A stretch of 64,000 nt of DNA from Dipylidium caninum (taxonomy: Eukaryota; Platyhelminthes; Cestoda; Cyclophyllidea; Dipylidiidae), in assembly GCA_017562135.1 (NCBI GenBank), contig QEYB01000377.1, forward strand, positions 124,001 through 188,000, in the 5' to 3' direction. Below, in pieces: positions 3,927-20,200 of this stretch. A program made the translations under genes and the position numbers. Each line of letters opens with the position of its first letter. Within the stretch, counting starts at the first letter, position 1. The notes beneath the pieces are model-generated. The model did not search any database and had not been told where the DNA came from. It saw nothing but the letters and a program-made list of their open reading frames with translations.

Positions 3927-6900
3927 TTAGTTCAGCGTTGCTTCTTTGGTCGGCGTCTTTGGCGACGGTGAAGTGGGGGGCAGTGCAAAGGCGGGGAAGA
4001 TGAGCGAAGTGTCCAGAAGGGCGTTGTGTTGAACCAAACTGGTGGCCCGATAATACGCCACCAATTCGTCCAACGAGGAGAAGAGGAGAGCCTTCTCAGA
4101 GAAGCCCCAGCGCGATCCGCCGTCGTCACTGCTTTCACCCACGCGGCCTGCGTAGATGAGGCAGTGTTGGACAGCATTTCCAGCTCTATGCACGCAAAGA
4201 AGGAATACCTTTACACTTTTTATCCGTTTACTAGGATTACTCGGGTCAAGGATACGATAAGCGCGTTAGATAAACGAAACCGGTTTTTTCCCCTACTTCC
4301 GTCAACTGTGATGATTATCGTAGTAGTTAACTTCAAGGGAGACCAGGAGGACTTCCTTCCGACGCGTCTCAAAATGCCTTATATTCGTTGATAGAAGCAA
4401 CTGTCGACCAACACCGGTTCCCCATAGTGCTGAACCGTCGGACGAGACGTGGTGAGACTAAAGTCTGTCGAAGGCGATCGGTGCAGAAACCTCCATGCTA
4501 ATTTGCAAAACAAATAAATGCGACAAATGTGTTCCCTACGGGGACACCGTCGCAAAAGTGGTGAAGTACTCGGAGGCAGAGGTGTCGGAATTTGATACGA
4601 AGCCTCGTCTCCCCTTTAATTAGATGATAAACGAAGGTCAAAGACTTCTCCTTTTGTCTGCTCCAAGAGAGTAAATTAATTTAGGTGAGTGCCAGTACCG
4701 TCGCCACAAGGGCCGGCTGTGAATAAAAAAACGACCCAATTCCACTTTCTTCGCTGCCCGGTTTATAGTGGAAGGAGACGGTAAAGGGGAGAACTATCGA
4801 GACCCGCCTCACACCGCAAAAGAACTCCGTAATTCGTAAGCAATGGGCTTGAAAAACTCTCTCTAACTCGACAGGGGAAGAGGTGAAGGGAGGGAGGGGG
4901 AAAGGGAAAAGAGGGTATTTGGGCTTTGGGGATGAGATGGATTGAAGTGGACAGCGTAACCAGCCTCTCTTTCCCTCACTGTTCTTCAAATGTCCCTTAA
5001 CCACAGCGCGAGTAACCAAGGATAATTACACGGAGAATGGACAGGTAGAAGAGAGCGAAAGGACACGCAACCCACTGTGACGAGAAGTGGCCGTTGGTCA
5101 AGATAACGAGGGTTTTCTTTTGTAGATGAACTCCCTGTGTGAGACTCGCTTCTTCCCTAAGAAAAGGCTCTACACTCGATTGTGGTTTAACGCGCGAATA
5201 CCCATTCTTCAACCTCCTTGTCTGAGTAATTTTCAACGTTGGATCTAGTCTGCCACGTGTGGACGAGGTGGAAGACAAATATGTGAGGCTGATGCTCCCT
5301 CATACGGCAGTCTCGTTGTCCCTCACAGCATTCAGACAAAAAAACACCACCACCACCACAGAGGTGGACGAAGGCTACTTTTAAGCGTTAGGTTCTCCCC
5401 TTTCTCCCCCACGAAAATACACACATTACTTCGTTTCGGGGCCTCATGAGTGAATAACAATGGGGATGTGAGACGAAAGGACGCCGCTGTATGGACCAAA
5501 TGCGAAGCACAACACCGAAAGGCGCACATTTGTGGTCTTCACAATCGGTCAGCTAATTAAGCGATTAGGGAGATGTAAGCTTTTTCGGAAAAAAACGCAG
5601 TTGGTTACCTCCTGAGTCGAATTGTGACTCAACGCCCAGGTATTAGAGGTTTTCAAGGCAAAACAAAACCCAAAAGAATAGCCAGTTGTTGTGAGAAAAA
5701 TTACTTGACAGACAGAGCGAATCGGTCGGCCATAGCAGAAGGGCGAATGAGGAAGGTGCCTGAAGGCTTGTTGGACAACACCTCCTCAGCTTGCTGTCGC
5801 GACACCTCCGCGAACCACGTGGAACGTTCTAGCGGTGGCAGCGAGGCCAGTACTGAGGACGACGGATTGACACCCATCTCTGCGACATCCGTGGCTGCGG
5901 TCATTAACGGTGGCAAGAGTGCGTCCGTGGGGCCCAAGTCACAGGCAAGAATAACCTCATCGGAGACGCCACGACGCTTGAGTTCTCGCCGGATCTCCTG
6001 CATACGCTCAGTCACTTGGAGTTTTTGGGAGTAGATCACCACCAAACTCTCGCACACCTCGCGAATTTGGTCGAGGAGACTGTTGTGCTGTTTACGCTTA
6101 GCCAGACGGGCTGCAGTGGCCAAATTCAAACGCTGTTTCCACAAAGAGGTGTGGCGCTCCAGCACCTCTTGGCTGAAATTGAGTATTCACATGCCGTAGA
6201 GCATAGGGGAGCCATAGAATTAGGAACACAGGAAATAAGAGGTGACTGTAGAAAATCTGCGCCGAGTTTATGACGGTTAAAACGCAAATTTTCTACAACT
6301 ATTCGCAGAGTTTAAGGCGAGAGAAAAGACCTAAAACAAGACCCAGATGCATTCTTGGAGACGCATCACATACCGAATGTCAGGATTATTTGCGGCGCAC
6401 AGGTATCAATTAAAATCCAAGTTAGAGGGAACAATGGACACCTCCTTCAGAGAACAGTGGGGATTGGCGGCCAGATGGGAATTGCTGAGTTCATTTATCC
6501 CAGCCTCCCTTGCGGAGAGTGTTCTATCTATGTGTTGCCTCTACATTTCGTGTTCTATCCAAATGTCCAAGGCTCCCTTCGACTAATTGTAAGGCCAAAT
6601 TTCCCTTCAGAGGTGTTAATTCATGTCAACAGGCGTAGCAATTCCAAACCTCTGAGTTAATGGATGTCGAGGGGGTGGACAAAGAAGCACCACGGAAACC
6701 GGGGCTCGAACTAAGGGAATCACGGCCAGCCACCGCGGAAAGATGTGGATTATTTATTCGTTTGAGAAAAATCGGTTACTTCCTGGAAGTGCGGACTGAA
6801 TTGACGCAATGTGAAGGCGGATTCGCAATCTGTCGGAAGGGAGGAGCCGAGGGATGTAGATTTGAGGCTATTCGACGAGAAGTTATTTGACAGCACAGAA

Positions 6901-9900
6901 AAATTTGTGACAGGATGGGGCATCGCAGTTACCTGGCAGGCTTTGCAAACTTTTTGTTGCGGGCGAATTGCGAGTTGCTCTTCACCAGCCATTCCTGTGC
7001 ACGACCCAGGGCTTGCATTTGGTTGGTTGTCACAGACAACTGATGCATGAACTTGCTCGATTGACAGTTCAGCTCATCGACCTATTGACACACAAAGTCA
7101 ACAGATAAGATCGCAGTCAGTGTAACTAGCGGACTAACATCATCCACCATATTCACATCATAAAATTTAGTTTAGACGGACCAAAAAAACCAACCAACGT
7201 TGAATGCATGTCTACGAAGCTCCCAGATGAAATAGACTTTGCTTTACATACCAATCGGCACTGATATTACCAAGTAAGCCAGATAGAATGGAAAAAAGGA
7301 AAGGATGGCTAAGAGGATCTCTGCGAAAAGTTCTAATTCGGTGGTACTATTGGACGAGGTCACAGTAGCAACAGAAGTATCAAGGAAGTTTGACCGCAAA
7401 CGAAGATAATAATGCAAGAAATATGCGAAAAACGCAAACCAACGTGTGTCACAAGAAAAGCGAGGCGAATTCCCGGAAGCGCAAGTTCCGTGCCGATGAA
7501 AGCGATGAAGACCAAAGAGCAACTCACCTTAAGCTGCAAATGGTTGAGTTCCACAGCGGCCGATCGCAGCGCAGACAAAAGACACGTCATAATGCAATCT
7601 GAGCTGGCAGACAAGGAAAGCGGTGGTAGTGCGAGGCTGTTTCGCACAACCGGAAACAACAACCGCGGGACGGGCGCGTCAATGCTGGTGAGGGGCGCTT
7701 GTTGTTGGTAGTGCGCCACCAGCGCGGAGACCAAGGCGAAACCCGGTGAGGGCGGATTGGTGATGTCGAAGACGTCACCACGATGGTAAATTCGAAAGTG
7801 GATGATATTGTCGTTGCGTCTAGAACGGATGGCCACAATTAGTATTTGGGTGTGGATGAAGAACAGATAAAACCACAAGACGGAGGCGTGAAGGAACGTC
7901 ACTTAAAAATGACAAAATGCCATTTAAAGACAAAGAGGAGATGGCTGTCCGCATTCGATCTACCACCAACTGGCACAACGACATAAAACCGAGAATATCA
8001 AGCCCATGATTCCATCTAAGCATTGCCACAGTTAGTATTGACTAGGGATGCTAACGGGGCAAAGGCAACACCACAAAAAGAAAGAAGGATAACCACCAAG
8101 AAAGTCCCTAGCACACTGTGGAACATCGCCTCCTCTCATCTTTGTCTCTGCTTCTGCCTCCATCTGCGGTTTGATCCCCAATCGCTCCCTCAAATGAAAT
8201 GACCCCGGCACTCCTCCACCCCACAGGGAGGAGGAAGCAGAGAAGAAAAGACCTTCTCCACCCCCAACTCCCACTTCTCTGCTGATTGACACACCAAAAC
8301 CAAGTGGACGTGGAGACAATAACTAATGTCAGCAAACGTCTACTTCCACTACATCGTCCCGGTCGCGACAACTGTGAAAATATACGAAAAGCGCGTCTCA
8401 AGACACTATTCAGGTCGCCGGAAGCACGCGCACTGCGTCTGTCCCCACTCTCATCCCGACCTCCTCCGCGGCTGGCAGCGCAGACACGAACTCCGAGCCG
8501 CAGCCTCCACCACACCGACACACGCAAGCCTGACGGGAGGAGTAAAGCGGTAGAGAAACCGACGAGCAACAAGGAGTGAACGCGTTGGGCAACAGACAGG
8601 CGGCGACTGACTGGTGGTGGGAGTCTGTCAAAGGGACTGTGCCAACAAAGGCGGCTTCACGGCTGCCCAAAAGTTAAGGTGAGGCCAAATCCGAAGTAGG
8701 CCTGCCTTCGTGTCTTGAGGGGGCGTATAACGACGTATGGACGAAGGGGACAGAGAAAGGACATCGATGCGGACGAACAAACGAAGCAATTGTGTTAAGG
8801 AAACCACCGTCAGCTCTACTGATGATGCACCACCTCCTGCCGCGATCGACACACCATGCAGGATGGGGTTGGCTGCAAGGCGGCTCTGAAGAGGAGCGAG
8901 AGGGTAGGGACTGAAGGGGGGGCGGTGGCTGGCACCCCACCTCCTTTCCTCACCGCTTGCACTGCCAACACGTCCAGTCTCGACATCCGGCCACACGGGG
9001 GCAGACGGTAAAGAGGACGTTTCAGGGGACATACCATCAAATGTGCCACGCTCAATGACCTCCTGTTTCCATACCATCCGCGTACTCACAACGCAAGCGA
9101 CTCGCTGCGATGACTGCGCCCCTGCTGCGTTGTCACCTCCGCCTCTCCGCCTGCCCATTTAGTGAGGGTCAAGGATATGAGAACCGCTGACCGGGACGTT
9201 CATCTCCTTGCCCCATAAAAAAAACCCACCGTTGCGGGACGCTCGTTTCGCAACCTCGACAACTGCCTTACTCACTGCTTGATGTCTATCACCGACGAAC
9301 ACGTTGGTTAAGCAGACTATCTCCTGGCGTCAGCCTGCTGTTTCGCCCTCTCAGAGGCGTCGCGTTAGAGGGGACTCACAGGCAAGTGGTGTCAACCACG
9401 TGCGGCGGTCAAACAGCATCTCATCGCTTGCTGTCCCAATCTCCCTGCACCGTCAACGGCTCCAATAACCTGCGACTTCTCAAACCCGTCTACCCTTTGT
9501 CCTCCACCTTCCATCCTCTACTCTCTCCCCTCCTCTTTCTACATCTCTTCTCCTACTCTCGCCACGCCTCTCCTCGCCTCTCTTCCCGCCTTTGGCCTCT
9601 CCCCCTCTGATTACACGTCAAGGCGAGGCGGAGGTCAAACGCACTGTCCCACACGGACACGTGAAGTCACAGCAACAACCACCTCTCACTCAAACCCACT
9701 GTCCCCCTCATTCAGACTACTGAAAAAACACTTTCGCCTCGCATGATGGGCACAGAGGCCGCCTTGAGCAGCGGGTGGCTCCCCAATCATCGCGGCGTGC
9801 AGTTGAGTGGAATGCGGGTCTCGTGATTCGGCGCAGCGACGGCCTCCCACCTGCCAAACCAGTCGCGCCAGCGCCTCTCCTCTCTCACCTAGCGAGGCGC

Positions 9901-12900
9901 CGTTGAAGCGCACTCTGTCTGACGACACCGAGCAGTGGACAGCCATGTCGTAAAGTCGCCTCCTATTTCACCCCTGTGCCAACGCCATGTCTAGTGTGTC
10001 ACCTCACACGCAGATGACAGGCAGCAGACAGTGGGCAGACGGACAGACGGACAAATGGCGGTGGCGAGTTTTTGGTGAGCACATCATGTTGACCGAACTA
10101 CAATAGGAGCGGCAACGTGCCGGCGCCAGCGGCAGCAGACTTCTCGCCCTGTGTTGTGGACGTCACGACTTGGCTTCTCCTTTCACTTCACTTCACCTCG
10201 TCTTGCTTTGCCCATCCACTCCCAGCGGCTACTTGCCTTTCCTCTCAGGTGGCTCTTTCCCACCGAGGTGCACAAACTAGCAACAGGCGAGCAGAGTGTG
10301 CTAACTCCGCTCAGTCTGAAGTGACTCGGTCGACTGCCTTGATTGGGGAGGCCGTTAAAATGCTCTGCGGTAAGGATGCACCTGAGGGTGCAGATGGTGT
10401 CCTCCGCCCACGACCACTTTTCCTCCTCATCTCAGCACTCATTCGTGAGCAGAAACCATGGCAAGCGACCGTTTTCTCAAGTTCATTCGTACGAAACAGG
10501 ATTCATGTCCCATAAAACCGCAACCATTACCATAAATCAAGTATGTAATTATTATTTTCTCATATCATACTAAATGGACTTGCGTCCAAAATTTAAGTGG
10601 ACTCAGAACGAGTACCGCATTCGTGCTCCTTCTCGGTTTAAAAGTAACCATGTCGTTTGGGGAACACAGTCCCCATCGCCTTCTAAGCACCTTGTCGCGC
10701 GGTTATTACAGCAAACTAGAACTCCCAATATTGTACGTAACGCTCAGTGCAGACGAGATGCAGAGCATGAAATTGCGTGGTAATGATTTCAAAGCAAACA
10801 AATGATAGGAAAAACGGTACATGCTATACCACACACGACTAGGAAGACGATTGGGACAAGGCCTACTGATGGGCTCATTTAAGTAGTATTTATTATTGGA
10901 GTCGGCGAATCACCATCTTTGAATTCGGAGATAAACGGTTAAAAGTGGGTACAACCTAACAATTAATGCACAAATGAAAGTATAGTGAATAAAGAATTGT
11001 GTTTGGAAAAAGGAAAACAAAGAATAGTTGCAAAAAACACCCCAGTATTATGTGATCCTGGTGATATTGGAGCCACTAACAGCATAAGTAGTAAATATCT
11101 AAAAGGCCGAACAGTTCGGCAGCCTATGGAGGTGGACGACTGTGGTCCAGCATTTAAAACGCACCTCTCAGTGAGCGTAAATGGACTATTGGTGGTGGAG
11201 GTGGAGTCGCGGAGGAGAAAGGCCCCATCGGGATGTCCGCGCATGATTCCGCTCACCTCCGACCGCGACACGTCGTTCCAGTACCAATCGCGCGTTGCCA
11301 GATCGCGGCGGTTACGCTCTACCGAGCGTGCTGTTGGTGGGTCCCACTGTGAGGAAGCACCCGGTTCAGCGACGGTGACAGCGGAACTGCTCGGTACGAG
11401 AGAAAGAATCGAACTTCCACCGGATTGAGCCAACAGCTCCGCATAGCACTCATAACCTAGTGAGAGAACACGTATTTAACTACTCTCGACATGTACGTTT
11501 GGGTTAGGGTAAAAGAATGACGCCGATGATGCTCTACTTAAATGGATAATGACATGGCCGTCAACGCCTCTTCTTTCCCACGTCTATAAATGCAACTGGC
11601 CGAGGAAGCACGCTTTAGACCCAAGGAATGGATCGCATCATTGGCATTCGGTGAATTACCGCCACTTCCAGGCAACCAACGAATTTCGAGACATCTTCGA
11701 AGTAAAAAGGCTTTCAAAGTGCAACAGAAATGAGGCCCTCGTGAATAATACGAGAATGCAACAAAACATTTTAGAAAACTTCACAAGCCTTGACTAACTT
11801 TTAATCGACCTTGCCGACCGACTGCGCAGCCTCCCACCCGCACCGGCAGCGCCAGGCCTCCGAGTGAAGTATTCAAAAAGGCGTTCTAGTGCCACCAAAC
11901 GCCGATGATCGCCAACCGGTGAGGCGAGGAGTACAACACGTTGCCAAGTGGGGCGAATGAGGACATGAGCAAGGATGGAAAGGACGAGACGGGGATCGTC
12001 TAGACGATCAATGTTGCCGTTATTGGTAATGCCAGGGAGGTGATGCTTTTGCTGTTGACCAACGGAGAGACGAACCTTGAGGAGACGTTGGTGACAAAGG
12101 ATAAAGCCGACATGCTGCAAAATGTGTCGAAGAGTAGCCAGGTTGCGAGGAGGCAGGGCGGAGAGAAATACCTCTAAATCGGCTAAAAATGAATCAGAAG
12201 GCAAGTGCATTAAGTTTTCTTCGGTTATCCCTACATGCCATTAGTTCGTAAAACTGACAGAGTTCACATGCACCGGTGATTTCCCAGCATTAAAAGAAGT
12301 TGCCGTTAGAATGGATTGGCAACATTTACCCGGAAAGAAAGTGAACATCATGGGAGAAGGGAGTCAGAGTGAATACCTTATTTCTGAAAATGAACTCGTC
12401 CACCAGAAATAAACGCTATATTTACTGAAGTGTAAGAAATAGAGGGGGTTAACAGTTCACAAAGCCTCCTCAACACACTACATGGCACCTCAATCCGCCC
12501 AGGCGCCTGCCCAAATACCGAAAACTTTTATCCCCAACACTTTTGCAATGGACACCGCCTGCATTAACGGCAGAGCAAAGGGCTGCAGATGAAACATGTG
12601 GGCGAGTTTGCAAAAAGAGAATGGTGTGATGTGTACAAAATCCCTGCGGTGGGGAAATACAATGTATTTTAATTAGAAATTTAACCCGGAACGAAACTCC
12701 GATTAGAGATGACTGAGCGGGCGGATCTGAAGGCGTGTTAGAGAGGGGCAAACAATAATCTCCAAGTGACCATTGGAGCACAATACTTTTGTGACTCCGA
12801 GTGAAAAGATTCAAACGAGGCAGTCCAGTGAACAATTCATTAGTTGATTAGCACGACCTCATTCATCAAAGGAAGAAGTGATTGAAAAAGGCCTGAGGAT

Positions 12901-15900
12901 GGCTGAAATTGTGCATACGAGAGTGCTCATCTCATAATAAAGGAGAATCGGACTGGCCATCCGACACATTACTCCGCCTCCAAGCTCAAATCACCTTCAA
13001 CAACAACGCAGTACGTCCTCGCAGTCATTCTCTACTCCAACTCGTCTCACTCGGCTCACTCGTCTCATTAGCACACCTCAACAGCCATCATTTCCAAAAA
13101 GACCTCCGACTTGAGGAAGAGCACAAAGCATCAGGACGGACAATTGCAGTTCAAGAGGCACAGGACAGGAAGACTTCAAGTACCCTTGACTAGACTCCTT
13201 TTCTACGGTCTAAGCTTTCCTCCCCACAAAATGCAGACTCATTTCAATGACATTCACACCAACGGGCATTTTGCCGCCTTCGCACATTTCAGAGACTGCA
13301 AGTGAGACTGCGCTGCCCGAGGATTGGGCATCTCACTCTCACTAACACGCAAATACTCGCATTTACGGCGAACTAAGAAGAAAGTCAGGACTTTAATTGA
13401 TGAGTTCAGCGTAAATGGCGTGTTGCAAAGGTGCACGAGATGGCAGGACGGAAGGAGGGGGGAAGCCCTCCCCACCACGCGTCTCGTATTTCCGAAATCA
13501 GCCTTCACTTACCAGAATCATCGGGGTTGGAAGGTCTATTGCCGTTATCGTTCGTAGTATTGACGTTACTGATGCTGTCGCTACCAGCTGCCAAATCCAG
13601 CATTCTTTGGTACATCTCTGCAGGAATCACAGGTTCGGGTAATTGTGCAAGAAAGCGTTTAATGATCTGCGCTAGTCGCACCAGTCGCTGCTCTGCCGGA
13701 ATTGACGAAGCCGTCTCCAAATCCGTGGGGAGACAGTCCGCATACGTCCATTCAAGGTCCTGAAGTTCCCGACCAGTTGCCGAAACTCGATACACATCCA
13801 CACAGTTCACCATCGGCAGAGACGGAGCAGATAATAAAGGGGAAGATGAGGGAAGCAAGGATAAGAACTGCTGTGGGGGCCGCAGTTTCGTTATCTCTTG
13901 TGCATTAAAGGTCGCCAACTGCTCAAAAATGCGAGTAGCGGTGGAGAGGAAGATTGGAACTTCGTCAGCATCTGTGATCTAATTTAAAGAAATGCCATTT
14001 ACTTTAAGATAATGCTTTTTCTTAAGGTCTTGCATAGATTTGCATGAAAAGAGGACATCAGAGATAAGATAACTTCTAAGCTACGAAATAACCGAGACAA
14101 ATGAAAATACCTGTTCTTCCAGCGGTACAGTGAAGTAGGTATGCCTACATATTGCTAAGGCTGTGGGGAGTGTGCTGCCACTCTGATGCAAATCAGAGTC
14201 TGGAGGAGGTGAATCCAAACCGATCAATCGCGATGGCTGCGCATCTACCAGCAATCGACCCGGACAAGGTGGGTGTGCTTCCGTGAAAACTCGGCAAATA
14301 CGGTGGAAGACACTCCCACAGACACTGCAATGGTAGCCCTGATAGACCAGGCCTAGAGTAGAGAGCAGACACTATAAATCATAATGAGGGTTTACCGACA
14401 GTGATTCTTCAACCGCAATGTACTGTGACTTCCTTTTAGCGGCTTGACTTCCGGTCAGGGGTATAGAATTCCAGCATCTGGGAATTAATAAATATTTCCC
14501 GTGCTGATTTTTACGTCCTTTAGCATAAAAAAACAGTAACTTTTCCTTTGATCCCAGCTACGAACGGATTAAAGAAGTATTCTTCGTCGTCCATAAATTC
14601 CGGCAGTCAACACAATTTTACGCTTCTTTGTGTAAGAAATGATAACGTAATTGAAAGCAAATTTGGAAATGAACTAATTGGGGGAAGTTCCGTGCATACC
14701 ACTAAATAAATTAACCCTGGGATAAAAAAGTCGCTATGAAGAACAATTTCTACTGAAACATTATTGAGTTCTGACATGCTGCTTAGTGCCGAATATAAAT
14801 GAAAAATAAGGCACTCGCCTAAGGCAATTCCTAAAGGAAAAAAACTAACTAAAACATGAACAACATTTCTTCTCTATCCCGCCCAGATGTGGTTGACTAC
14901 CGATTTCGACTCAACAGTTGGTTTTCAAGGAAGCAGGGACAAACGAGTGAGATAACGCTCCCTAATGTACTAAATATGAATTAACCTAGGCTTAAGCACC
15001 AAAAAAACAGGGAAGTATTTGGGTTTTGACAAAAAGTACACGCTCTCTGAAAAAAACTAACAAAATAATTTCGATAATCTGACGGCTAGATAATAACCCG
15101 ACCCCTTAGTAAGCTACTGACGGCCTGGGGACACACTTTTAACTCAAATTAACTCACCCAAAAGTGGGAGACCACAAACACAACACGCCAATTCACAAGT
15201 AAAGTTCTGCAGACGAAGATTAACGTGTGGGGTGGGGGAAGAGACTTGAGAAGCGATAAACGTCCTATCCGATGGCGAGGGTAATTCTCCCACTAGGGTC
15301 TGAAATCAGTAATGTTGTTAAAATCATCCTTACTCAAATTCCCTCTGTAGTAATGTACCCACCATGATAGCTCGTTTCAGGGTGCATCTGGCAAAGGAGT
15401 CATTGATGTCATTTAATGGACTTAACGGCTTCAAAAGTCCCGGCAGAGCCTCTCCGTTGATGCTGTAGGAGAAGAAGAGGGCGGTGTAGCGTGAGAGACC
15501 CACTACAACTAGCCACTGGAGTACCTGCTCCACGGACCAATTGGCTAGCGGCTGGAGATCGAAAAGAAATCAACTACCCGACCTGACAAAATAATTGGTT
15601 TCGGTTTGGGAAAAACAGTACAGGAAAATACAGTAGATTACTAAAACTAATGGTACCTGCCTATGATAAGTGTTTCAGTGTTATAAAAACTACACAAAAG
15701 AAGATGCCTTGCTAAAACGCGTACACGCTCTTTTCCCTTTAATTTATGAAAATTCATTACAATAGACCACGTCTCAAATCAACTCTTGTTCGAGGTATGG
15801 CGAAGAGTGCCTATATTTTGGCAACTAGACAAGTTTAATTAAAACACAAATGTGGATCCCTCAATTAATATTCAAAGTATCGAAGCAAGCAATATGGTAT

Positions 15901-16411
15901 TCTAATCACCCAAAAGAAATGACGTCTGGTAAAATCAACCACGCCATTTGCAATAGATAACTGTACTGAGAGATCAGGAAAAATAAAAACCATTTATCAA
16001 CTGAAATGCATAAATCTGGCAATTAAATACAGCATCCATCCAAAATTAATCGAAAAATATTCTTCTCAAAATTGGGACGAAAATTTATCACCACAATAGA
16101 TTAAATCTAAGACAGGGAAAGTTGTCTAACCTGATCGGATAGAGCTACACCAGCAGAAGCTTCAGCATCAGTGCCAATGCTCTCGCTAACCCCGGAAGAC
16201 ACGGCAACGGCAGCGGAAGATACTGACCCATGACACCGCCCTGCTTTGGTAACACAGGAGGCGTGGAAAAGGCTTCCACATGTGATGCACTGTCTCGCCG
16301 TACATCGTGGAGTCACGATGTAGTCATCACAGGTTAAACACAATCGTGGATACACGACCGACACACGGACCAAATTATGTACAGGCCCCAAACTCATTCC
16401 TACTTCATAAT
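3927..16411 (-). CDS. PI3K class IA regulatory subunit (p85-like) with C1-SAM-C1-RhoGAP-SH2-iSH2-SH2 order
   Basis: This protein should bind phosphotyrosine motifs on receptors or adaptors and hold a p110 catalytic subunit through its coiled coil. Exons on the minus strand are 16411-16131 (ATG at 16397), 15551-15334, 15264-15158, 14352-14111, 13978-13513, 12230-11838, 11456-11165, 7819-7528, 7081-6933, 6172-5705 and 4185-3927. All phases close, giving ~1,050 residues against 724 for human p85-alpha. Domains: C1 at 7-50 with the full zinc pattern (H-x12-C-x2-C-x13-C-x2-C-x4-H-x2-C); SAM ~93-155 ([10 protein letters not shown]); second C1 ~178-222 ([19 protein letters not shown]); RhoGAP ~275-550 keeping an arginine in VDVYRVS; nSH2 ~622-725 ([17 protein letters not shown]); helical iSH2 ~740-910; cSH2 ~929-1040 ([22 protein letters not shown]). 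Both SH2 domains keep the FLxR arginine. There is no SH3 domain. The N-terminal start and the donor at 11,837 are the least certain points. Confidence 0.88.
7820..11164 (-). other. Large intron of the PI3K regulatory gene
   Basis: This 3.3 kb intron splits the nSH2 domain between the conserved TLTE and the [16 protein letters not shown] part. The joined codon AG+A restores arginine. It contains arm 2 of inverted repeat R2 and a pyrimidine-rich stretch near 9,480-9,610. Many open frames occur on both strands (for example 8,628-9,158 minus), but none has a recognisable domain, so no nested gene is called. Confidence 0.75.
10172..10478 (+). repeat. Inverted repeat R2, arm 2 (inside an intron)
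   Basis: This is the reverse-complement partner of 2,331-2,622. The plus strand carries the same open reading frame as arm 1 ([20 protein letters not shown] then [19 protein letters not shown]) inside a 132-codon frame at 10,117-10,515. Similarity to arm 1 ends abruptly after GCAAGCGACCGTTT at about 10,476. The host intron splits the nSH2 domain of the minus-strand gene. Confidence 0.8.
12634..13530. repeat. Direct repeat R1, copy 2, overlapping the end of a RhoGAP exon
   Basis: This copy matches 1-875. It fills most of the minus-strand intron 13,512-12,231 and extends 18 bases into the upstream exon (13,530-13,513), where it encodes part of PNPDDSG and supplies the splice donor GTAAGT. The next exon (12,230 down) restores phase with GG, giving glycine and then ITEEN. 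The overlap falls in a non-conserved loop of the RhoGAP domain. Confidence 0.85.
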
Positions 16412-16529
16412 CTAGACGAGAATGAAAACGGTACTTAGAATGGTGGAGTCAATAAGTAAAAGATAAAAAGACGAACAAAGGTAGATTGTTTTATTCATGT
16501 CTACTTTGTCTACGAGCTAATCTAATTTA
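16411..16529 (-). promoter_or_regulatory. Short intergenic spacer with polyA signal and a 3' splice site
   Basis: Reading the minus strand, the NDUFA11-like stop codon (16,529-16,527) is followed by AATAAA at 16,495-16,490. A pyrimidine-rich run ending in CGTCTAG (AG at 16,413-16,412) follows, directly before the first PI3K regulatory exon. A 3' splice site with no coding exon before it fits a spliced-leader trans-splicing acceptor, which is known in flatworms. It could equally be the acceptor of a normal 5'UTR intron whose first exon was not recognised. Confidence 0.45.
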
Positions 16530-17187
16530 CAAAAACTTCTCAAGTTCCTCCTCCTCCTCACGCCATTTCTTGTTCATATAGCGATGGTTCAACGAAATGT
16601 AACCATTGGGTACGCAACCATAGGAACGTCCAACATTCCGATTGGTAAAGTAAGGTCTTAACATCTCGCACTGTTTGCCTAAAGCGCAAATGACTGCGAA
16701 ACAAACCACCATGTGCATCGGCTAGCCAAGGGAGCTAAAAAAGGACACAAATGACAATGAAGAAAACCCATATATTAGACCGTATTAAAGCCGAGTTATC
16801 TTACCTTTGTAACGAACAAGAAAGCCAGCAGCGGCACCACCAATTGCATGGTTCAAGGGGCTATGCTCCTTATTTAAAAGTTTTGCGCTGGCGTAGCTAG
16901 TAATGGCGTGTAGAGCACCGGCCGAAACTATCCCACAAATGAAGCCTATTCCTTAACTTACTTCCAAGAGCAAGACAGCGGACCGCCTTAACTCCGCCTA
17001 GGTACATATTATCACCATGCAGAAAAGCGGGAAAGTAGGCGAGGGCAGCGTTAAAGGAGCCTGATAATAGAAAAGTAATCATAACTGACTTACCAATTAT
17101 ATAACCCGTAAATGAGGCCATCTTTATACGGTAAAACAGGTGATCATTGTCCTTAGTGTTTGCATAATTATAGAGATAGTTCGGCAT
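16527..17187 (-). CDS. NDUFA11: NADH dehydrogenase complex I subunit NDUFA11-like (B14.7, Tim17 family)
   Basis: This is a probable accessory membrane subunit of mitochondrial complex I. Exons on the minus strand are 17187-17094, 17060-16962, 16945-16805 and about 16734-16527, joined with intact phase through exon 3. The product would be ~180 residues against 141 in human. The N-terminal MPNYLYNYANTKDND resembles the family start. The centre has the glycine/alanine-rich membrane segment HSPLNHAIGGAAAGFLVRYK typical of the family, followed by a further hydrophobic helix (MHMVVCFAVICALG) and an acidic C-terminal tail. The start at 17,187 is chosen because the upstream in-frame ATG adds only eight residues with no family match. 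Exon 3 ends in phase 1, but exon 4 is one base short near 16,719 to join in frame. The assignment rests on remembered family pattern, so it is moderate. Confidence 0.55.
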
Positions 17188-17219
17188 ACTAGTCAAAAGA
17201 GCAAAGGGCAAAAGATCAA

Positions 17220-20200
17220 GCGAACCAAACGGGCGGGCTCACAGGCACTAGGACCAATTAAATGATCAGTAGCTCTAACCTTAATTCCAGTCAAAAAAAA
17301 ATATTATTGTTAGCTTAATATTTCGTGAACATGTCCACAACTTTAATCACCCGCCAAAATGGTGCAAAAGACGTTTTAGACATCAGGCTTGCTGCAGCAA
17401 GAGGTTAGCGCTGAAATCCGTGTTTAATTTACTATAGCGTTAAGGGGCACACATTATAAAGTAAGCAACCAATAATCTCGCGTCAACAACTTCTAATGGT
17501 ATAAGACACAGGGTGGTAAGCGGGCATGCGTTACATCCTAAAGGTATAAAATGGATGAAGGTCCCACAACTACCGAAAGGTGTTAAAGTGCTGAAAGATT
17601 TAGCTGATCCTGTATTAATAATTTACGTCAAATCCAAGCAATCCCCGAGCGCAAAGGTGATCAATCATATGGTACCACGGCACTCGTTTTCTGCGAGGAT
17701 ATAATGCATAAAGGGTTTTTCCTAATGCTCTCGAAATTGTAATGTCTAAGCAGCGGCTAGGATTTTTCACTAGCTTCAAAAGACACAAAAAACGAGCCCG
17801 CCATAATCTTAAACTTACAGATTTCTCATGTTTCGTACTATTACGACATCTTCCGTTATAGTCGCTATTCCGGAATCGTATTAAGGGACGAACTGATGCA
17901 TTCACTCGATCGTGGATCCTGCGCCCTAACCGCTAGGAAAATTCTTCCGTATCACAAGGCGTTTCTCTTAACTGTCATTGTGCTCAAGGCTTTACTGGAG
18001 CTTAAACTAAAACTTGTTTCCTTTCCTTATAAAATACCATATATTAGGGACTGTCGTGCCACTAGTAAGTTGCATGAAGGATATTTTTTGCAATTTTGTA
18101 CTATTTTGCAATTACTTTTCTGACAATAAATTACTGTTTTAATAATTATTCCCTTGCCGGGCCAATCGAAATGGTCTCCCTCTCGTTACTAGTTGACCGG
18201 CCAGAAGGAAATTCACCCGTTTCATAGCATAATAACCCTCACAATTTCGCTGGCTTGACTTCTCGCCCTTGTTCCCAACTCCGTAAGCTCTGGCGTGTTT
18301 TTTCAAACAATTTTGTCGTAATTTATCCGTTGTCGAGTGTATTGAAACATTACTTTAGGGCAAATTTTGGTCGCAATGTTGATTTGCACCGGTGGACTCA
18401 CCTGCGAGTCCTTCGCCATTCTTGACGGTCAAGATAGGCACGTTGTCTTAGCGCCTGACCTTCCCACTTGGGAAGACAACCAACCTCCTCAATACCGGAA
18501 GTCCCCCAGACGACCTCATCGACTCCTCCGTCTACCTGATACCAACCCGTGTGCTGTATGTAGTCTGATTTTATCCTATGCGATTTTAAAGGTTGAACTA
18601 CAGTCAGGTCGCGGGCTTCCCCAAATCAACATCGACTTGTCGCACCCCGTCCCCCTCATCGCTTTGCATGAGAGAGACTCTGTTCCTGTGAGAGCTGCAA
18701 CATGGCGTATTCATTGGCCAAAGATATGTCGTGGCACATGCGCTTGCATCGGAGTTTCAATACATCCAAATACCTTGGATTCACCGATCGATCGTCTACT
18801 GTACTGGGATCTTGCGCAGTGCTCTTCCCATCTCGCGAACACTCCAACTCATGGTACCTCTATTTGATTTCATTTCTCCTTGTCGGGTATTCAGATACCA
18901 TCACCCAGTCTCTTTTTGTTATTAACTTCCTAATTTATTAATGATTAAATTTAATGCCTTAAGCCTGTGGTCTCCTTATTTTCTTTATTCTGTGTCGTTG
19001 ATTTAGGATTTTTTTAATCGCAATCTGATGCACTTTTTCTATTGTGATTAGATTGGGAGCTTTTGGATTTGGTTTAGTCTCAGTCTGTTTGCGGCATAAC
19101 TTGGTGTATCTGCCCTCCGCGAATGGCACATCAGACAAGTGTAACCTTTGGTAGCGGATTGAGGAAATAATAGACTCCTAAGATTTGGTCATTATATAAA
19201 ATCAATTTGTGTTTTTTTTGTCCCTATTTTTTTTATTAACGGTTGCAAAGAGAATATGCCCTCCGGTGTGTAAATCTCCTAACAAATAAAAGCGGTGTTT
19301 GATTGTAAGCTGGTGTGTTTGGCGAAAATATTGCTATTATTGTTGTGGCCTTTATCGACTTTCGTTAATTTGCGTTATCATTAAGAATAATATTTTTGAA
19401 TTATGTTGCCATATCTTATACTATCCGTGTCTTTGACTAACGTCTAAACCAGACTTGGATGTTTATCTATTTTTTGGACTAGTATTCTGAGTATTTTAAA
19501 TGGTGGAAACATGTTAACCACGGTTGCAAACTCGCACATAATTAGAGTTAACTTTCTATCACTCTACTAAGGCGACTATCAGTCCATCTTACATTAATGA
19601 AATCCCAACAATTCACGATATCTTCTGGTCTTTGTTTCGGTATCGCAAATAGCCCTTTTTTTCAATTGGACACTTTTGTCTTTAACTCAGCAATCCGTCT
19701 GTGCCACAATTACATGATGTCTGACTAATGAACTCATCCTTATTGCTTTGCGGCCTTCAACCTCAAAATAGTAGTGTTGATAAGTCTCTTATTGTACACC
19801 TCAGGCTCCTAATCATAAGTCAAGGTTAGTGAAGTTAACCAACTTCGCAATTATCACTGAATCCTTAACTGCTTTTGTTAGCGATTTTGCTAACATTTAT
19901 GTAGTAAAGTACACGTAGGGTCGTCTTTACGCCAGCTGATATCCCCCTTTGGCGCATCATTCGCTTGCCTCAACTAACGACCAATAGTTCGTTCCGAATG
20001 CTACTGGTAATTGTTAAGTAGAATTATCTCCCCTTTAGTTTTTGGCCCTCCAGACGCTGATTTCACGATGACTCTAGCAGTTCATTGGAACAGTCGCCGT
20101 CTCCTTGAAGCCAAGCTTATCTACAATTTCGCCAATCTGTCTCCCATTGCAGCATGCACTCTTAGTCGTGAGGTCTGGCTGAGCTGTCGAGACGCTCCGA

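Follow-up and report, generated by a model that had tools for sequence, protein, structure and literature searches.

Gene structure at the locus

The window, that is, the whole 64,000-nucleotide stretch of Dipylidium caninum DNA analysed here, sits in a 106-Mb assembly. On its minus strand, from 16,397 to 3,927, lies a predicted gene of 11 exons whose phases are consistent throughout, and all ten introns of the corrected exon model are GT-AG. The predicted product of that model is 1,049 residues long, against the 1,050 given by an earlier sequence-only reading. The features are listed below in order of transcription, P0001 being the homologous protein from Echinococcus granulosus.

AG 5' of exon 1: 16,412–16,413, minus strand; candidate spliced-leader trans-splice acceptor
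Exon 1: 16,131–16,397, minus strand; residues 1–89, donor GTTAGA in phase 0; overlaps the match to P0001 residues 6–111
First C1 domain: about 16,379–16,233, minus strand; residues 7–55, within exon 1; C1 zinc-ligand pattern and HMM
Exon 2: 15,363–15,551, minus strand; residues 90–152, most of the SAM domain; SAM_2 at 23.2 bits in this exon alone, and HMM
Exon 3: 15,158–15,299, minus strand; residues 153–200, the final codon being split; SAM ends and the second C1 begins here; junction taken from relatives
Second C1 domain: from about 15,227 (exon 3) to about 14,264 (exon 4), minus strand; residues 177–229
Exon 4: 14,111–14,352, minus strand; residues 200–280, remainder of the second C1 (HMM); by alignment, the RhoGAP region probably begins here
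Exon 5: 13,513–13,978, minus strand; RhoGAP, with invariant Y343-R344
Exon 6: 11,799–12,182, minus strand; remainder of RhoGAP
Exon 7: 11,165–11,456, minus strand; linker and first part of the N-terminal SH2, with arginine 646
Exon 8: 7,528–7,819, minus strand; remainder of the N-terminal SH2 and start of the inter-SH2 region
Exon 9: 6,933–7,081, minus strand; inter-SH2 region, helical in the model of an orthologue
Exon 10: 5,705–6,172, minus strand; remainder of the inter-SH2 region and first part of the C-terminal SH2, with arginine 951
Exon 11: 3,927–4,185, minus strand; remainder of the C-terminal SH2, tail and stop codon

Two details of the model differ from the sequence-only reading. The 5' limit had been put at 16,411; this position comes directly after an AG, and the first in-frame start codon is found at 16,397. 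The exon 2/3 junction had been placed at 15,334/15,264, which proved wrong and was dropped on homology with tapeworm relatives. At this boundary all nine full-length relatives carry close variants of KRAIM-TLIGELPSPADR, which fit an intron whose donor follows 15,363 and whose acceptor precedes 15,299, and exon 2 is therefore ended at the former and exon 3 begun at the latter. The alignment of the P0001 protein to the genome reaches window position 15,305 within exon 3, and the remaining junctions of the corrected model are backed by alignment with relatives. The P0001 protein matches 16 genomic places, 11 of which are the exons described here, in order; the other five are weak (E 0.001 to 0.007) and confined to the SH2 parts. 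With all 19 candidates scored, a single place in the genome matches the 11 exons in order.

Upstream on the same strand, open frames at 16,527–17,238 belong to another gene, whose stop at 16,527 is separated from the AG at 16,412 by about 113 bases. The arrangement suggests a spliced-leader operon. Pfam gave no identification for the two upstream open frames; the gene's resemblance to NDUFA11, a complex I subunit, is weak (E 0.06 at best, with the piece carried by P0004). The window also holds a direct repeat of 300 bases, 99% identical (402–701 and 13,058–13,357), one copy of which lies in the intron that follows exon 5, and an inverted repeat of 186 bases, 98% complementary (2,327–2,512 and 10,289–10,474), one arm of which falls within the long intron separating exons 7 and 8.

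Domain content and the inter-SH2 region

The order C1-SAM-C1-RhoGAP-SH2-inter-SH2-SH2, first read from the letters, is confirmed by the exon model and Pfam, the inter-SH2 region being placed by its position, its length and the helices of an orthologue. In the window protein, Pfam matches two SH2 stretches (86.6 bits, cut-off 21), RhoGAP, also called the BH domain (42.9 bits, cut-off 24.5), and two C1 stretches (31.6 bits, cut-off 26.5). SAM_2 scores 18.4 bits in the whole protein, under its cut-off of 20.5, and 23.2 in exon 2 alone, over it. SH2, RhoGAP, C1 and SAM are all matched in each of the seven members of the protein alignment (E up to 0.1), and Pfam finds no SH3 in the window protein or in any of these seven. 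The phosphotyrosine arginines R646 and R951 are invariant in all seven sequences, and Y343-R344 of exon 5 presumably marks the arginine-finger position of RhoGAP. When the first exon model, still with the 15,334/15,264 junction, was used as query, p85alpha headed the search of solved structures (2.6e-34). Together, the SH2 pair, RhoGAP, the p85alpha-led structure matches and the tapeworm homologues uphold the proposed identity as a PI3K regulatory subunit.

The inter-SH2 region is the part in which sequence similarity to p85 is undetectable. The iSH2 family PF16454 matched neither the genome nor the window protein, and in the same genome search it matched one of 14 control genomes, with no control over the cut-off. 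Profile-profile comparison with iSH2 returned a probability of 0.34%; against the PDB, the inter-SH2 profile found no p85 and one match, to interferon gamma (E 0.69), and BLASTP gave one chance-level match (E 6.8). The region is thus assigned as inter-SH2 by where it lies, how long it is and the helices predicted for an orthologue. The Hymenolepis orthologue, rather than the window protein, was modelled twice, and each model has two helices of 66 residues between the SH2 domains. The models differ in that one was built with ordinary p85 in its alignment and the other without, at low to middling confidence. With the orthologue's model as Foldseek query, p85alpha chains lead. The C1/SAM part is poor in both (block pLDDT 23–37 over residues 1–250 in the model with ordinary p85, 22–50 in the one without), so these domains rest on sequence.

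Such undetectable iSH2 similarity could mean that the region has degenerated, leaving an SH2/RhoGAP adaptor that now works independently of p110. This is very unlikely: the two long helices are predicted in an iSH2-like layout with and without ordinary p85 in the alignment, 32 inter-SH2 positions are invariant among six tapeworm sequences, and the genome encodes a p85-binding domain of p110. That domain (PF02192, 46.7 bits, cut-off 27) is on a separate contig, C678, where the match is an open frame in locus L001 (1,465–1,758), and the p110 encoded there is likely to be the catalytic partner. The Ras-binding domain of p110 (PF00794) was matched neither in the genome nor in any control, and the blank is uninformative because the controls gave nothing either.

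The C1-SAM-C1 block in tapeworms and other animals

Homology search found ten proteins, all from tapeworm genera: nine full-length homologues and P0010, of 654 aa, which covers 33% of the query. In all nine full-length proteins the C1-SAM-C1 block and the remainder are in one protein with the order kept (43–68% identity), and for five of them a source gives the name PI3K regulatory subunit. The order is identical from end to end in P0001, P0006 (Hymenolepis diminuta), P0009 (Schistocephalus solidus) and others. They differ from the Dipylidium protein only in species sequence, except that three public models, P0002–P0004, carry an extra N-terminal part, a piece of the upstream gene fused to p85. 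A search with the tapeworm alignment (E up to 1e-10, 7,999 candidates scored) returned the same ten tapeworm proteins and did not reach p85 of trematodes, planarians, annelids or molluscs.

Six p85 proteins from arthropods and amphioxus, and none from flatworms, supplied the C1-SAM-C1 sequences for a profile HMM of the block. It aligns to residues 7–229 of the spliced model in a single unbroken stretch (76.1 bits). Scanned against the window's 1,678 open frames, the HMM matches just three at E up to 1, the frames with exons 1, 2 and 4; taken by itself, exon 3 has no match at that threshold, and these E-values apply to the small set scanned. The C1/SAM exons might form a gene of their own that ends before 13,978, two genes having been joined in the model, and public tapeworm models do include one false fusion, that of P0002–P0004 with the upstream gene. 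Yet 9/9 full-length tapeworm homologues unite both parts within a single protein without any change of order, and the six arthropod and amphioxus p85 proteins also hold both. Because homologues carry all parts in one protein, the two-gene model is rejected as barely credible, and the block and the remainder are treated as a single gene.

Outside the tapeworms, two SH2 domains were scored against 2,299 candidates of at least 737 residues. Among the 431 that passed, 120 were listed, so that frequencies among them are not frequencies in nature. By precomputed Pfam matches, 13 of the 120 listed have SAM or C1: two tapeworm proteins and 11 others, from a scorpion, three spiders, a horseshoe crab, two true bugs, a whitefly, two amphioxus and one further source. 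All 11 non-tapeworm proteins among the matches listed have SAM, and six of them also have C1. The other 107 of the 120 listed have neither, and 100 of these are named vertebrates; the statement that C1 and SAM are both missing from vertebrate p85 accordingly holds among the matches listed (0/100). Annelids, molluscs, planarians and trematodes are not represented among them. P0102, a public gene model from a kangaroo rat that bears the name MAST3 kinase, carries SH2 and p85 iSH2, and is probably an annotation fusion.

Nine proteins were scanned further. Six (P0109, P0113, P0117, P0119, P0126 and P0128) contain two C1, SAM, RhoGAP, two SH2 and iSH2, with one C1 before and one after SAM by zinc-ligand pattern. 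Of the other three, P0116 begins at SAM with a single C1 that does not reach the cut-off, P0115 lacks C1 though SAM is present, and P0013, a vertebrate control, lacks both. Three of the six (P0109, P0117 and P0119) have SH3 above a cut-off; that of P0113 narrowly misses it, and none is listed for P0126 or P0128. The arthropod proteins (P0109, scorpion; P0119, spider; P0126, horseshoe crab; P0128, whitefly) thus share C1-SAM-C1-RhoGAP-SH2-iSH2-SH2 with the tapeworm, but their iSH2 is clear by Pfam, their first C1 loop keeps W-G, and an N-terminal SH3 is present in P0109 and P0119. The amphioxus proteins (P0113, P0117), from a chordate, have the same order again; they differ in an N-terminal SH3 near the Pfam cut-off and in RhoGAP and iSH2 scores far higher than those of the tapeworm. 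Vertebrate p85alpha and p85beta (P0013 and others) have RhoGAP-SH2-iSH2-SH2 in common with it; they carry SH3 and lack C1-SAM-C1. The N-terminal SH3 is found in full-length vertebrate p85 and is absent from p55/p50 and insect p60, so that it does not define the p85 family. Chimaerins are SH2-C1-RhoGAP proteins that lack SAM, a second SH2 and iSH2. Their C1 lies ahead of RhoGAP as in the tapeworm protein, and the orthologue's model matches the folds 3cxl and 1xa6.

In print, a 2025 paper reports two C1 and SAM in p85alpha of the shrimp Penaeus vannamei, absent in human (PMC12817958). The order had been put forward as unusual, and this did not survive: it occurs in tapeworms, chelicerates, a whitefly and amphioxus, and in the published shrimp protein. 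The published description of FgAAP, a regulatory subunit of 1,171 aa from Fasciola gigantica, gives it a 'protein kinase C domain' and SH2 (PMC11162077). As described, that domain is probably C1, which would liken FgAAP to the tapeworm subunit. The open-licence literature searched, mostly at the level of abstracts, holds no description of the layout of the tapeworm protein, and within its searched portions none of the role of the C1-SAM-C1 arm in PI3K control.

Function and history of the tapeworm subunit

All eight zinc ligands are kept in both C1 domains by zinc-ligand pattern, as first described, and the same is true of the six tapeworm relatives compared. The loops were read against PKC-delta C1B; the typical consensus for diacylglycerol binding is P11, G23 and Q27. 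It is present in full in neither domain. The first C1 keeps P11, but its loop is without W-G and QG, in the window and in 6/6 tapeworm relatives. The second keeps G23 and Q27 in a GLVYQG loop, with E in place of the proline P11, and P and L at positions where PKC-delta has L and W; all six relatives agree. In the second C1 of arthropod and amphioxus p85 the proline is also gone (L or V), and the first C1 of four arthropods and two amphioxus keeps W-G and has no Q27.

The sequence-only reading had linked this subunit to diacylglycerol and polymerisation, with C1 domains recruited by the lipid and SAM polymers clustering PI3K. Two C1 domains with complete zinc ligands, the retained GLVYQG loop and a SAM domain matched by Pfam are compatible with it. 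Nevertheless, diacylglycerol sensing is doubtful because the first C1 is without the conserved loop residues and the second without the proline, losses partly shared by arthropods and amphioxus, and such a subunit seems unlikely. As judged from residues, classical binding is unlikely for the first C1 and uncertain for the second. The C1 and SAM domains may be protein or membrane docking modules.

The gene is almost certainly the tapeworm orthologue of class IA p85, probably in the ancestral bilaterian layout, without the N-terminal SH3. On the established biology of p85, its two SH2 domains, with phosphotyrosine arginines kept, would dock on phosphorylated receptors, and the inter-SH2 coiled coil would hold p110 through its p85-binding domain. 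Release of SH2 inhibition would then leave p110 active at the membrane. More tentatively, the C1-SAM-C1-RhoGAP arm might act as a docking module for membrane, GTPase or partner, not as a classical diacylglycerol sensor.

Since amphioxus and arthropods share C1-SAM-C1 between SH3 and RhoGAP, the matches listed point to an ancestral order that was probably SH3-C1-SAM-C1-RhoGAP-SH2-iSH2-SH2. From the same matches, C1-SAM-C1 was probably lost in vertebrates and SH3 in tapeworms. The missing SH3, a divergent inter-SH2 region and an atypical first C1 are modest tapeworm traits. A more far-reaching proposal is that class IA PI3K has been rewired in tapeworms: with SH3 lost and the inter-SH2 region diverged, together with p110, until its sequence is no longer recognisable, C1-SAM-C1-RhoGAP would be the main membrane/GTPase input and the second C1 still responsive to lipid. 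We consider this improbable.

The architecture is already in databases and in print, and it is real but essentially ordinary, because the layout recurs across tapeworms and in several arthropods as well as amphioxus. A correct tapeworm gene model is useful because host insulin is reported to change PI3K/Akt phosphorylation in Echinococcus (cited in PMC11162077). For the family as a whole, the finding corrects a vertebrate-centred view: SH3-RhoGAP-SH2-iSH2-SH2 looks like a reduced form.
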